64,000 bases of DNA from Microbacterium aurum (GTDB lineage: Bacteria; Actinomycetota; Actinomycetes; Actinomycetales; Microbacteriaceae). The stretch lies in contig NZ_JAFBCQ010000001.1 of the NCBI RefSeq assembly GCF_016907815.1, forward strand, positions 2,790,001 through 2,854,000. Reading direction: 5' to 3'. A model generated the notes under the pieces. It had not been told where the DNA came from. It saw only the letters and a program-made list of their open reading frames with translations, and did not search any database. The translations under genes and the position numbers were made by a program. The first letter of the stretch is position 1; the number at the start of each line of letters is the position of its first letter. Positions 2,344-6,693 of the stretch are shown one piece after another.

Positions 2344-3530
2344 GAGGAGTACGCGCTGTTCTCGTGGACGTAGTCGTGCGTCAGATCGTTCGTGTAGATC
2401 GTGGCGGATGCCGTGCCGGCCTTCAGATCGATCAGCACGCTCGTCGACCGCGGCGTCAGGTCGACCTCCTCGCGGGGGCGATCGGGCGCGCCCGCGCTGC
2501 ACAGGCGCACGCCGTTGAAGCTGACATCCACCTCGTAGGGGTCGAAGGATGCCGACGTCGTGCCGATCGCCGCGAGCACCCGTCCCCAGTTCGGGTCGTT
2601 GCCGAAGATCGCCACCTTGAAGAGGTTGTTGCGCGCGACGGAGCGCCCCACCGCGACGGCGTCCTCCTCCGTCGCCGCCCCGACCACCTGGATGTCGATG
2701 TCGTGGCTCGCGCCCTCGGCATCCGCCTGCAGCTGCACGGCGAGGTCGGTGCACACGGCGGTGAGCGCGGCGCGGAACGCCTCCGCATCGGGCGTCACGC
2801 CCGAGGCGCCGCTGACCATGAGGGTCACCTGGTCGTTCGTCGACATGCAGCCGTCCGAGTCGAGCCGGTCGAAGCTCACGCGCGTCGCGGCGCGCAGGTG
2901 CGCATCGGCGTCTGCGGCGGTGAGGACGGCGTCCGTGGTGATCACGACGAGCATCGTCGCGAGGCCCGGCGCGAGCATGCCGGCGCCCTTCGCCATGGCG
3001 CCGATCGTCCAGCCGTCGCCCTGGTGGACCGACTCCTTCGCGACGGAGTCGGTCGTCATGATCGCGCGGGCCGCGTCGCCGCCGCCGGTCGCGCTGAGGT
3101 GGGCGATCGCGTCTTCCGTGCCGGCGAGGACCTTGGCGCGAAACACCTCGTCGCCCGTGCCGATGAGACCCGTCGAGCAGACCAGGACGTCTCCTGCGCC
3201 GACGCCCAGCAGCTCCGCGGCACGCTCGGCCGTCTGGTGCGTGGTCTGGAAGCCGAAGCTGCCGGTGAAGCAGTTCGCACCGCCGGAGTTCAGCACGATC
3301 GCCTCGACCGTGCCGTCGGCAATCACCTGCTGCGACCACAGGATCGGGTTGGCCTTGGCCCGGTTGCTCGTGAAGAGGGCCGCGCCGACGGTGAGCGGGC
3401 CGCGGTTGACGACGACGGCGACATCGGCCTTGCCGGTGGACTTCAGCCCGGCGGCGACGCCGGCCGCCTCGAACCCCTGCGGGGCCGTCACTCCTGTTGC
3501 AGACGCTCCTGATGCAGACGCGGCGCTCAC
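2340..3530 (-). CDS. argJ: Bifunctional ornithine acetyltransferase / N-acetylglutamate synthase
   Basis: Recycles the acetyl group from N-acetylornithine to glutamate (cyclic pathway) and may also use acetyl-CoA. About 396 residues. The self-cleavage site is visible in the segment [15 protein letters not shown]: ArgJ precursors are cut between the Ala and Thr, making the Thr the catalytic nucleophile of the beta chain. Conserved stretches [15 protein letters not shown] and NDPNWGR are present. Start is the GTG overlapping the argC stop by 4 bp. Residues 1-15 are low-complexity Ser/Ala, so the exact start is slightly uncertain. A separate argA is not needed if this enzyme is bifunctional. Confidence 0.97.
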
Positions 3531-4561
3531 GGGGCTACTCCGTTCACGGTCAGGCCGGTGGCCTCTGGCAGGCCGAGGGCGATGTTCATCGACTGGATGG
3601 CGGCACCCGCGGTGCCCTTGACGAGGTTGTCGACGGCGGTGACGACGACGACGCGGTTCGCGGCACGGTCGACGGCGAGGCCGATCAGCGCCGTGTTGGC
3701 GCCCAGCACGTCGGCCGTCCGCGGGAAGTGTCCCTCGGGCAGCACCTGCACGAACGGCTCGTCGGCGTAGGCCTGCTCCCAGGCATCCCGGATCTGCGCA
3801 TCGGTGACGCCGTTGGCGATCGGCGCCGTCGAGGTGGCCAGGATGCCGCGGGCCATCGGCACGAGCACCGGCGTGAACGAGATGCGGACATCGCCGGTGG
3901 CGCCGGCGGCCACGAGCGCCTGCCGGATCTCGGGGATGTGGCGATGCGTGCCGCCGACGGCGTACGGGTTCGCGGAGCCGAGGATCTCGGCGGCGAGGAG
4001 GTTGGTCTTGAGGCTCTTGCCCGCGCCGGACGGGCCGACCGCCAACACGGCGACGATGTCGGAAGAGTCGATGACGCCCGCCGCGACGCCCGGGGCGAGC
4101 GAGAGCGAGACGGTCGAGGCGTTGCAGCCCGGCGCGGCGATGCGCGTCGCACCGACAAGCGCCGCGCGACCGCCCGGCAGCTCGGGGACGCCGTACGCCC
4201 ACGGCTCGTGGAACGTGCCGCCGTAGAAGGCGTCCCAGGCGTCCGGCGAGGTCAGCCGGTGATCGGCGCCGGCGTCGATGACGAGCGGCGCGTCCTGGAG
4301 CGCGTCGGTGTACTGACCCGACTGACCGTGCGGCAGCGCGAGGAAGACGACGTCGTGCCCCGCCAGCACCTCGGGCGTCGTCGGCTGGAGCGTCAGGTGC
4401 CGCAGCGAGCGCAGATGCGGCTGGTGGGCGATGAGCGGTTCGCCCGCGCTGGAGTGGGCGGTGACGGTGCGGATCTCCACCTCGGGGTGGGCGGCGAGCA
4501 GCCGCAGGATCTCACCGCCGGCGTAGCCGGAGGCGCCGGAGACGGCGACCGAAGAGGTCAT
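3527..4561 (-). CDS. argC: N-acetyl-gamma-glutamyl-phosphate reductase
   Basis: NADPH-dependent reduction of acetylglutamyl phosphate to the semialdehyde. About 344 residues. N-terminal Rossmann motif S-G-A-S-G-Y-A-G-G at residues ~8-16; the catalytic cysteine sits in APGCNAST, where the family normally has PGC-Y-P-T, and is conserved. First structural gene of the arginine operon. The ATG at 4561 has an AAGG Shine-Dalgarno eight bases upstream. It lies about 98 nt downstream of a 23-codon Arg-rich ORF (4660-4731), so the transcript probably begins there and argC expression may be controlled by translation of that leader (inference). Confidence 0.97.
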
Positions 4562-4659
4562 TGTTCAACCTTATTGTCTGGAGACGGTGGGCTCGGAAAC
4601 GGCGACACCGGCGACTCGACCCGCTTCGCACCGGGTGCGCGGGGAGATCGCGGGGTCGC
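4562..4659 (-). promoter_or_regulatory. Leader region between Arg-rich peptide and argC (candidate attenuator)
   Basis: Transcribed spacer between the stop of the small ORF and argC. On the minus strand, bases 4658-4650 can pair with 4624-4617 (CGACCC/GGGTCG plus GC/GC with one bulged C). The same left arm (GGCGAC, starting inside the stop codon) can instead pair with either of two GTCGCC copies further down, giving mutually exclusive folds. There is no U-run after the stem, so if this is attenuation it may act on ribosome access or through Rho rather than as a classic intrinsic terminator. Pairings were read by eye, with no energy calculation. Confidence 0.35.
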
Positions 4660-4731
4660 CTAGAGTCGGCGGCCGGCCAGACGTCGGCGCGCGCGCAGCA
4701 CCGTGGAGACGGCGAACGCGGGCGAAGACAT
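4660..4731 (-). CDS. 23-residue Arg-rich leader peptide, putative regulator of arg operon
   Basis: Reads ATG to TAG, 23 codons. Residues 13-22 are R-A-R-R-R-L-A-G-R-R, i.e. six arginines in ten positions, using CGC, CGA and CGT codons. The ORF is placed exactly as expected for a leaderless gene: a TAGGGT -10 ends six bases before the ATG and a TTGCGC -35 lies 18 bp further up. It sits directly upstream of argC with no other gene between. By analogy with amino-acid leader peptides (trp, his, leu attenuators) ribosome stalling at these codons when Arg-tRNA is scarce could raise argC expression; this is inference. In GC-rich DNA short Arg-rich frames also arise by chance, so comparison with relatives is needed. 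Confidence 0.5.
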   Translation of the reverse strand: MSSPAFAVSTVLRARRRLAGRRL

Positions 4732-4737
4732 GCCGTG

Positions 4738-4767
4738 ACCCTAACGCGCGTCGGCGGACTCGCGCAA
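4738..4767 (-). promoter_or_regulatory. Promoter of leader peptide / arg operon
   Basis: Minus-strand -10 TAGGGT (4743-4738) and -35 TTGCGC (4767-4762) separated by 18 bp, with transcription expected to start at or next to the ATG at 4731. This is the only good promoter before argC. I see no convincing ArgR box (paired 18-bp palindromes) near it. Confidence 0.6.
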
Positions 4768-4790
4768 ATCGCGGGGCGGATGCCGGTGGG

Positions 4791-5113
4791 TCAGGCGCCG
4801 GCGGGGCGATGGGGCGCCGGCGGCAGCGCCGCGATGAGCGCGAGTTCGTCGGCGCGGCTGAGGCCCGCCTGACGGCGGGCTCGGCGAGGGGCGCCGACTC
4901 ATCGGCATCCGCCTCGTCGTCGGCCGCATAGGCCGAGACGCTCGAGACGAACGTGATGTGGCGGGCCCACTCGGACAGCGCCGTGGCAGCGGTGTACGGC
5001 GCGTCGCGACCCCCGCGGGCGAGGCAGGTGACCGAAGCCCCGGCATCCAGCCACCGCTCGGCGATGCGCGAGCCGAGCCAGCCCGTGCCGCCGAGGAGGA
5101 GGACGTCGGTCAT
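4791..5113 (-). pseudogene. Decayed NAD-dependent epimerase/dehydratase
   Basis: The first ~35 codons are an intact Rossmann start (GGTGWLGSRIAERWLDAG) that overlaps the preceding permease stop as ATGA. The frame then jumps straight to a segment HITFVSSVSAYAADDE, which belongs to the middle of this atypical SDR family, and the natural C-terminus (LSRADELALIAAL and on to a TGA at 4791) is in another frame. Intact members are about 300 residues or more, so at least two internal stretches are deleted and one junction is out of frame. The remnant no longer encodes a functional enzyme. Its end lies just upstream of the arg leader promoter. Confidence 0.75.
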
Positions 5114-6693
5114 GTCGTCGGGAACGCCTTGATCCGCACGAGCAGGTCCGGACCGGTGCCGTCCAGCGTGCGCCCGCCGAGGTGGATGCCGAGGGCGATC
5201 GCTCCCCCGCCGACGACCAGCGCCACGGCGAGCGAGATCCAGCCGAGCACCGCCGACCCGGTGACGAGTGCTGCGATGGCGACACCGAGCGCCGGGATGC
5301 CGACGACGAAGCACGCCGCGAGCACGACGAACACCAGCAGCCCGCTGACGAACGTCTGCCCCGGCACACTCTTGAACGGGCTGTCGCCGGGGGCGGCGAC
5401 CGGCGTCACGATGAGCGCCGACGACACCGCCGTCACGGCGTAGCCCGCCAGCAGCAGGCCGAGGGCCGCGCCGAGGACGGCCGGCAGCAGGTCGACGCGA
5501 CCGGCGATCACCGTCGTGACGACGCCGACGAGCACCGTCAGCGGCACCCCGACGCAGGCAGCGCCCAACAGCCGGCCGAGCCGGTCGTCGCGGCCTCGGA
5601 TCGGGGCCGACAGCACCGAGGCGAACGCCGTGCCGTCGTAGGAGATGTCGGTGTAGCCCCCGATGCACAGGATGAAGGCGACGAACACCGCGGATCCGAT
5701 GAACATGAAGCCCTGGGTGCCGCCGGTGAAGGCGAACAGCACCGGGAAGATCGGTACGACGAGCAGCTGACGCAGGTAGCGCGGATCGCGCAGCCACCCG
5801 GTGAGCGAGCGCGCCCACGTAGCGCCGACGCCGCCGGTCGGCATGCGCCCGAACCATCCCAGCGCCCCCGGCCGCACGGTGCGGGCGGCGGTGCGGTGAC
5901 TTGTCGTCGCCGCCCGGGCGAGCGCGCGCGCCCACAACAGCCACAGCACGAGGAGGGTCGCGACCGCGATCGCGATCTTCGCGACCGCGGCGATCCCGGC
6001 GCCGTCGGCGATGTCGGCGGGGACGGCCCACGCCGCCGCGAGGGGCGTCCAGCCCAGGATGCCGGAGATCTGCATCAGCTTCGCGCCGCTCGCGCTGGCC
6101 GAGCTCAGCAGCGCGAGAGCACCGGTGACGATGGGGCCGGCGAGGATCAGCAGGACCAGCACGATCGTGCCCAGCGTCTCCCGCCCTCGCCGGTTGCCGC
6201 CGAGTCCGCTGGAGAGCGCGGTCACCAGGCGCGAGGCCACGACGCAGGTGACGACCGCGATCGCCAGACACGGCACGGCCACCACGGCGGCCACGGGCCA
6301 CCGCAGCCACAGGATCAGCGTCGACAGCGCCGCGAGGGTCGTGACGATGCCGGGGATGCCGGTCAGTCCGGTCGCGGTGAGCGCCGCCATCACCTGCCGC
6401 GCGGTCAGAGGGAAGGGGGCGAGCTTCTCGGCATCCACCGTCGTCTCGGTGCCCGCGATGAGGATGGGACCCACGACCCATCCCAGCAGCAGGGCGGCAC
6501 CGCCCAGCGTCGTCACGAGGCGGGCGACCTGGGTGCCGTCCAGCTGCGCGACGGCGACGAGCGCCGCGACGACCATGGCGAGGATCGACAGCGCCCACAC
6601 GATGCCGAAGCAGAACCCGACGAGCTGCCAGGGCCGGCGGACGAGGCTGTTGCCGAGGATCCGGTACCGGAGCTTCAGGACTGTCGCAACCAC
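5110..6693 (-). CDS. ABC-2 type exporter permease
   Basis: Integral membrane protein of about 527 residues with roughly ten or more hydrophobic helices, no signal peptide, and an Arg-rich loop near the middle (residues ~290-310). It follows, and overlaps by 19 bp, an ABC ATPase gene, so the two form a small exporter. The start chosen is GTG 6693, preceded by GAGGGG at good Shine-Dalgarno spacing; the longer open frame upstream is only a shadow of the ATPase gene. The substrate cannot be told from sequence. Its 3' end is coupled (ATGA) to the decayed epimerase gene. Confidence 0.85.
   Translation of the reverse strand: MVATVLKLRYRILGNSLVRRPWQLVGFCFGIVWALSILAMVVAALVAVAQLDGTQVARLVTTLGGAALLLGWVVGPILIAGTETTVDAEKLAPFPLTARQVMAALTATGLTGIPGIVTTLAALSTLILWLRWPVAAVVAVPCLAIAVVTCVVASRLVTALSSGLGGNRRGRETLGTIVLVLLILAGPIVTGALALLSSASASGAKLMQISGILGWTPLAAAWAVPADIADGAGIAAVAKIAIAVATLLVLWLLWARALARAATTSHRTAARTVRPGALGWFGRMPTGGVGATWARSLTGWLRDPRYLRQLLVVPIFPVLFAFTGGTQGFMFIGSAVFVAFILCIGGYTDISYDGTAFASVLSAPIRGRDDRLGRLLGAACVGVPLTVLVGVVTTVIAGRVDLLPAVLGAALGLLLAGYAVTAVSSALIVTPVAAPGDSPFKSVPGQTFVSGLLVFVVLAACFVVGIPALGVAIAALVTGSAVLGWISLAVALVVGGGAIALGIHLGGRTLDGTGPDLLVRIKAFPTT

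Follow-up and report, generated by a model that had tools for sequence, protein, structure and literature searches.

An arginine-rich leader reading frame in front of argC in Microbacteriaceae suggests a ribosome-mediated attenuator of the arginine operon

The stretch of DNA that was analysed, 64,000 nucleotides of Microbacterium aurum and hereafter called the window, carries an arginine operon which by its ORFs and Pfam matches reads argC, argJ, argB, argD, argF, a gene for a DUF418-type membrane protein and argH. The genes argC, argJ, argB and argD are found inside the window, and argF, the DUF418-type gene and argH just beyond its edge. An argR-like ORF was not seen between argF and argH; the membrane protein gene (DUF418/acyltransferase-type) is located there, at 3127-4404 of L194 on the minus strand. 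Just upstream of the leader described below we found the remnant of an NAD-dependent epimerase gene (window 4778-5113, minus strand), whose profile match covers only the first 36 of 240 positions.

The original prediction had placed a 23-codon ORF with six Arg codons within ten residues in front of argC, with a promoter of its own. This ORF was recovered as described (Table 1), with the six Arg codons falling in residues 13-22, and the distance of 98 nt given between its stop and the argC ATG (4561) was likewise correct. The promoter sequence also reads as claimed, with an 18 bp spacer from TTGCGC to TAGGGT, but its support is conservation, since a sigma-70 consensus scan of 4400-5200 listed no promoter. 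A terminator scan over the same interval gave no terminator-like site and no U-tract terminator, and the Rfam models, applied to the whole window at gathering scores, gave no match to a T-box or any other described RNA family.

Table 1. Positions of the leader, its signals and argC in the window.
Feature	Position	Strand	Basis
argC, first gene of the operon	3527..4561	minus	ORFs and Pfam
Leader ORF, 23 codons, ATG...TAG, MSSPAFAVSTVLRARRRLAGRRL	4731..4660	minus	ORF list; orthologues before argC in other loci
Stop codon TAG of the leader ORF	4662-4660	minus	
-35-like TTGCGC of the putative leader promoter	4767-4762	minus	sequence and conservation
-10 box TAGGGT, leaderless type, 6 bases 5' of the leader ATG	4743-4738	minus	frame-linked conservation
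Arg run CGC CGA CGT, residues 15-17, codons -9 to -7 before the stop	4681..4689	minus	Arg conserved there in TAG-type leaders
CGA codon, two before the stop	4666..4668	minus	CGA at -2 in TAG-type leaders
R3, GGCGAC, first base is the last base of the stop codon	4655..4660	minus	conserved element
R4, GTGTCGCC, putative partner of R3	4601..4608	minus	alignment, fold, permutation test
R5 candidate, weak, CACCG	4585..4589	minus	uncertain in the genus of the window
AAGG, probable Shine-Dalgarno of argC	4569..4572	minus	AAGG or near form kept where the overlapping TAnnnT is lost

To follow the leader through the family we used 170 argC loci, made up of 80 named loci and 90 others (the window, 29 loci and 60 loci). 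The named loci are the best 80 of 482 relatives, of which 72 are titled Microbacterium and 8 otherwise (e.g. Frigoribacterium sp. JB110, L087). Genera are given as labels (g1, g2 and so on), and all 80 named loci were counted as g1. A leader was called where TAnnnT stands 5-8 nt before an ATG or GTG that opens an ORF of 12-45 codons with at least three Arg, which gave 138 leaders; the 139th (L142, g24) came from a relaxed scan. These 139 leaders were found before argC among the 170 loci, 80 of which are the best 80 of 482 relatives. The leader is present in 79 of these 80, the exception being a metagenome assembly (L088), and in 60 of the 90 others, where one locus (L004) has 52 nt of upstream sequence only. 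Counted by genus, 35 of the 56 examined have the leader and 21 do not. The comparison with relatives that had been proposed as a check, looking for a conserved ORF with codon-wise change, was thereby carried out and did not refute the leader.

Because the leader rule presupposes the promoter, we ran a promoter-independent linkage test on 110 loci for which the 3' motif CGAnnnTAGGCG was the sole criterion. Of these, 109 have TAnnnT of the leaderless type in front of an in-frame start, L142 being the miss, against 0 of 220 for the other two frames; the background for all ATG and GTG of these regions is 144 of 1620, leaders included. The -10 box is 6 bases from the start in 117 of the 138 leaders, 7 in 19 and 8 in 2, and a -35 TTG is placed with an 18-bp spacer in 85, with 17 or 19 bp in 10 and is absent in 43. 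Leader length runs from 20 to 43 codons, and the N-termini drift. In the genome of the window the 3' motif has a single perfect match, at argC, and ten one-mismatch matches compared with 16 for a reversed control pattern; three of the ten were inspected for further leader copies (L196, L199, L200) and had no such leader.

The arginine content is concentrated at the end of the leaders, where Arg makes up 43.8% of the last 12 residues versus 11.4% of the remainder (138 leaders). Among the 83 distinct TAG-type leaders Arg is found at codons -7, -8 and -9 in 74, 68 and 66 cases, the third bases of these codons vary, and all 83 have CGA as codon -2. When all leader types are considered, CGA followed by three bases and NNGGCG is found in 135 of 138. 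Base-level conservation of CGA and GGCGAC is what one would expect of a structured RNA or a protein-binding site, in which CG-rich repeats are read as Arg codons and the ORF is a by-product. We find this very improbable, as the third bases of the Arg run vary, and the frame that start and promoter share with the 3' motif is preserved in spite of the variation in leader length.

The leaders also differ from argC in their choice of Arg codons: the rare CGA is enriched and the common CGG is avoided. In g1 (80 named loci, the best 80 of 482 relatives) CGG accounts for 9 of 495 leader Arg codons versus 382 of 1317 in argC, and CGA for 155 of 495 versus 33 of 1317; outside g1 (51 genomes) the counts are 31 of 401 versus 219 of 789 for CGG and 99 of 401 versus 39 of 789 for CGA, all drawn from related sequences and hence not independent. 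CGA is still raised when the fixed codon is left out (78 of 418 in g1, 50 of 352 outside g1). CGC, CGU and CGA share one inosine tRNA, CGG is decoded by a different tRNA, and decoding of CGA is slow. Selective charging has been described as a source of bias in the choice of regulatory codons (PMC1183508). The original prediction had asked that chance be excluded, since CG-rich DNA readily yields Arg codons; G+C is indeed high, and Arg reaches its 11.4% even outside the last 12 residues. However, a bias towards G+C should make CGG more frequent, whereas the leaders avoid it; together with the conservation across genera and the in-frame versus off-frame starts this leaves chance a practically negligible explanation.

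The stop is TAG in 111 of the 138 leaders, TGA in 26 and TAA in one, and it comes in two main forms. In the first TAG stands immediately before GCGAC (with variants), and in the second TGA follows a few codons downstream, so that GGCGAC or a near form is read in frame. R3 is retained in both forms while the position of the stop shifts, and it would be covered by a ribosome at either stop. In fungi the arginine attenuator peptide arrests the ribosome with free arginine, and one may ask if the Arg-rich peptide, with free arginine as a cofactor, halts the ribosome here as well. The conserved Arg-rich C-terminus would agree with such a nascent-peptide arrest. On the other hand, the positions that separate the Arg codons and those at the C-terminal end are variable, the frame can continue past R3 with a different C-terminus, and arrest by free arginine would not predict the avoidance of CGG, hence we regard peptide arrest as quite improbable.

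Alternative pairings of the stop-codon region were part of the original prediction, and the comparison lends some support to pairings there that could exclude one another. R3 is positioned at the stop and appears to pair with R4. The indications that GGCGAC (R3) pairs with GTCGCC (R4), in competition with a pairing of R4 with R5 further down, are modest and partly mixed. In 61 aligned rows (of 68 candidates; 7 were left out) R3 and R4 are nearly invariant and the consensus fold of 8 pairs has no compensatory change, so these rows cannot prove R3:R4. A permutation of own against other-genus pairing used one representative each of 32 genera other than g1, with L129 and L142 left out of the duplex tests. 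This gave p 0.0019 for the R3:R4 window (0.0027 with other representatives) and 0.0003 for the R4 flank with R5 (0.0017), compared with 0.22 (0.12) for the control R3:R5; the R3:R4 core alone gave no signal (0.64 and 0.62), and pair counts suggest that R4 was probably anchored wrongly in some 8 of the 32 genera. Within g1 (78 loci) the corresponding values were 0.0002 for R3:R4, 0.017 for the R4 flank with R5, 0.079 for the whole R4:R5 and 0.55 for the control. When R5 was shuffled, R4:R5 reached a combined p of 0.002, but the control reached 0.013, and individual genera fell below 0.05 in 5 of 32 cases.

By eye, R4:R5 can be read as GCTGTGCGG with CCGCACAGC in g80, TCGTGCG with CGCACGA in g59, GAGTGGGYG with CGCCCACTC in g2 and GAGACG with CGTCTC in g34. 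Folding of single sequences gave no strong signal (z of -2.1 for the window leader and -1.2 to -1.5 for three others). From these comparisons we consider R3:R4 likely, R4:R5 likely outside g1, and R4:R5 within g1 unsure. With the ribosome at the stop, R4 of the window is predicted to pair with argC codons rather than with R5, folding onto a stretch at the argC start (codons 5-12, window 4548-4526, minus strand) which repeats the R4-like GTCGCCGTCTCCGG common in leaders; these argC codons differ in other genera. A hairpin between the last Arg codons and R3 (CGCC:GGCG) was also considered, but it is missing in leaders ending E-R-R or E-R-L and is hence not general. In L002 the spacer between R3 and R4 holds three tandem TCGACAAGCTCAGGGACCCATA units.

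We modelled two positions of the ribosome on the leader. For the stalled one the longest Arg run was taken and its second Arg placed in the A site, with 14 nt covered. The leading edge modelled in this way stops short of R3 by a median of 12 nt; among 137 leaders, 132 have it at R3 or before it. Stalled, R3:R4 has a mean of 6.6 pairs in g1 and 7.0 in the others, and with the ribosome at the stop it has none by construction. The predicted R4:R5 pairs rise from stalled to stop position from 3.6 to 6.1 in g1 and from 3.1 to 5.6 in the others. In g2, g33, g45 and g70, and in one of two each in g73, g64 and g80, R4:R5 is preferred by the model already in the stalled position.

The leader carries a codon run for the operon's own product in a short ORF whose translation is predicted, and we think it probable that it acts as a ribosome-mediated attenuator of the arginine operon which senses the supply of arginyl-tRNA. 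The transcript would begin with the leader ATG, and its leaderless mini-gene would be translated by a ribosome without delay. Under a shortage of charged tRNA-Arg this ribosome would stall in the Arg run, short of R3, R3:R4 would form, and argC and the downstream genes would be expressed. With arginine plentiful the ribosome would reach the last CGA and the stop and cover R3, R4 would be free to pair with R5, and argC expression would be lowered. Of the attenuation originally proposed, the leaderless-type Arg-rich leader under selection held, in genomes where no ArgR was found (see below), and the putative exclusive pairings gained some support, while a U-tract terminator was not found in the window.

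How the off step would work can be approached from the argC start. TAAGGT before argC was considered as a second leaderless promoter, but g32, g56, g57, g64 and g76, which have lost TAnnnT, still have AAGG or something close to it, and we therefore prefer AAGG as a Shine-Dalgarno; TAAGGT may have a double role as Shine-Dalgarno and promoter. Where R5 is clear, an AATAAGG-like sequence follows and not a U-tract. The same sensor could have the translation of argC as its output, through an R4:R5 hairpin near the Shine-Dalgarno or through failed reinitiation, the mRNA always being full length. Several genera outside g1 in which R5 ends a few bases before AAGG speak for this, as does the missing U-tract terminator, and translational ileS T-boxes are known in actinobacteria (PMC1262725). 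However, sequestration of the Shine-Dalgarno is not supported as the off step, its modelled exposure being the same in both states (0.45 stalled and 0.49 at the stop in g1, 0.52 and 0.52 in the others), and in g1 loci the distance from R4 to argC reaches about 100 nt. We consider a translational output unlikely. For the attenuator acting on transcription our first guess is Rho-assisted or U-less termination, given that no U-tract was found and that the exposure of the Shine-Dalgarno is unchanged in the model.

Ribosome-mediated attenuators described in actinobacteria include trp, trpS, leuS and ilvB (PMC1262725) and ilvB1 of Mycobacterium tuberculosis (PMC13236596), and the argC leader resembles them in its short ORF with product codons and in its putative alternative pairings, one arm of which a ribosome at the stop would mask. 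It differs from the actinobacterial trp and ilvB leaders, which have a GC-rich hairpin and poly-U there, in that no U-tract was found. As the terminator is missing and the response to arginine is a prediction, we describe it as acting like an attenuator and do not class it as a classical, trp-type one. The cys leaders of Mycobacterium share the codon run near the stop and the lack of a conserved terminator hairpin, and their authors suggested Rho, but they concern cysteine, and no R3:R4-type conserved pairing is reported in the pages available (PMC1262725). In orf34-speF of Salmonella consecutive Arg codons sense arginine and pausing alters the mRNA fold; this system controls ornithine decarboxylase and not arginine synthesis, belongs to another phylum, and works via Rho, the ribosome-binding site and RNase G (PMC6386406). 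The Pseudomonas carA leader similarly has a leader peptide before a gene feeding arginine synthesis, but according to PMC4997734 its attenuation is tied to pyrimidines and arginine acts transcriptionally. The 2005 survey, whose genomes included Leifsonia xyli, reports that a conserved RNA structure upstream of arginine operons was not found in them (PMC1262725), and in the literature searched, thin on subscription journals, we recognised no description of an arginine leader in actinobacteria. If true, our reading would mean leader-peptide control of arginine synthesis in actinobacteria, which that survey did not find (PMC1262725).

ArgR and ARG boxes, neither of which was found in this family, fulfil this role at argC elsewhere in the order. 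The ArgR C-terminal domain PF02863 was detected in 0 of 299 genomes of the family (0 of 23 in the genus) and in all 15 genomes from other families of the order, and the N-terminal domain PF01316 was not detected in the genome of the window. The original prediction saw no ArgR box, and this extends to the family: none of the 170 loci has an ARG box with up to three mismatches before argC, the best 13-mer having at least four mismatches in each. Of 20 outgroup upstream regions 19 were readable (L190 was not), and 18 of the 19 have an ARG-box-like 13-mer with up to three mismatches near argC; as the 13-base consensus was read from these same loci the outgroup figure is partly circular, while the family figure is not. 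It seems that the leader stands in for the ArgR not found in the family.

By comparison of sequences the conserved frame, the linkage to a leaderless-type promoter, the codon choice and the constant placement of Arg run, CGA and R3 are well founded, and the covariation of the pairings is modest. Beyond this we tentatively propose a family-wide swap from ArgR to a ribosome sensor. Leaderless translation would couple ribosome and polymerase from the first base, the CGC/CGU/CGA run would report on one tRNA-Arg, the near-invariant CGA two before the stop would be a built-in brake holding the ribosome on R3 while arginine is in ample supply, and the off state would do without a U-tract terminator. 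The absence of ArgR and ARG boxes paired with a ribosome sensor across the family would make the replacement of a repressor datable and testable, and the CGA position and CGG avoidance offer cheap, sharp tests of codon-specific sensing.

The history of the leader was followed on an argC tree of 76 rows (41 with the leader, 26 without and 9 outgroup; L030 was dropped). The leader label changes 9 times on this tree, at least 4 of the changes being forced by well-supported branches, compared with a mean of 25.5 for shuffled labels, and the leaders are scattered over several groups around the outgroup attachment point. This fits one early gain with several losses, though a single-gene tree is no proof. 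A TAnnnT box is found just before argC in 16 of the 21 leader-less genera, and in those 16 argC may be leaderless and unregulated. Loci such as L117, L123, L125, L134, L141, L144 and L146, among others, have a TAGATT-like box with no ARG box and no leader, argC being seemingly leaderless. In L133, L136, L137 and L165 (g32, g36, g5), for which the search gave no leader ORF, the interval between pheT and argC still contains an R4-like (G)GCGTCGCCGCC or GGCGCCGCCGCC, and this stretch is possibly the relic of a lost leader.
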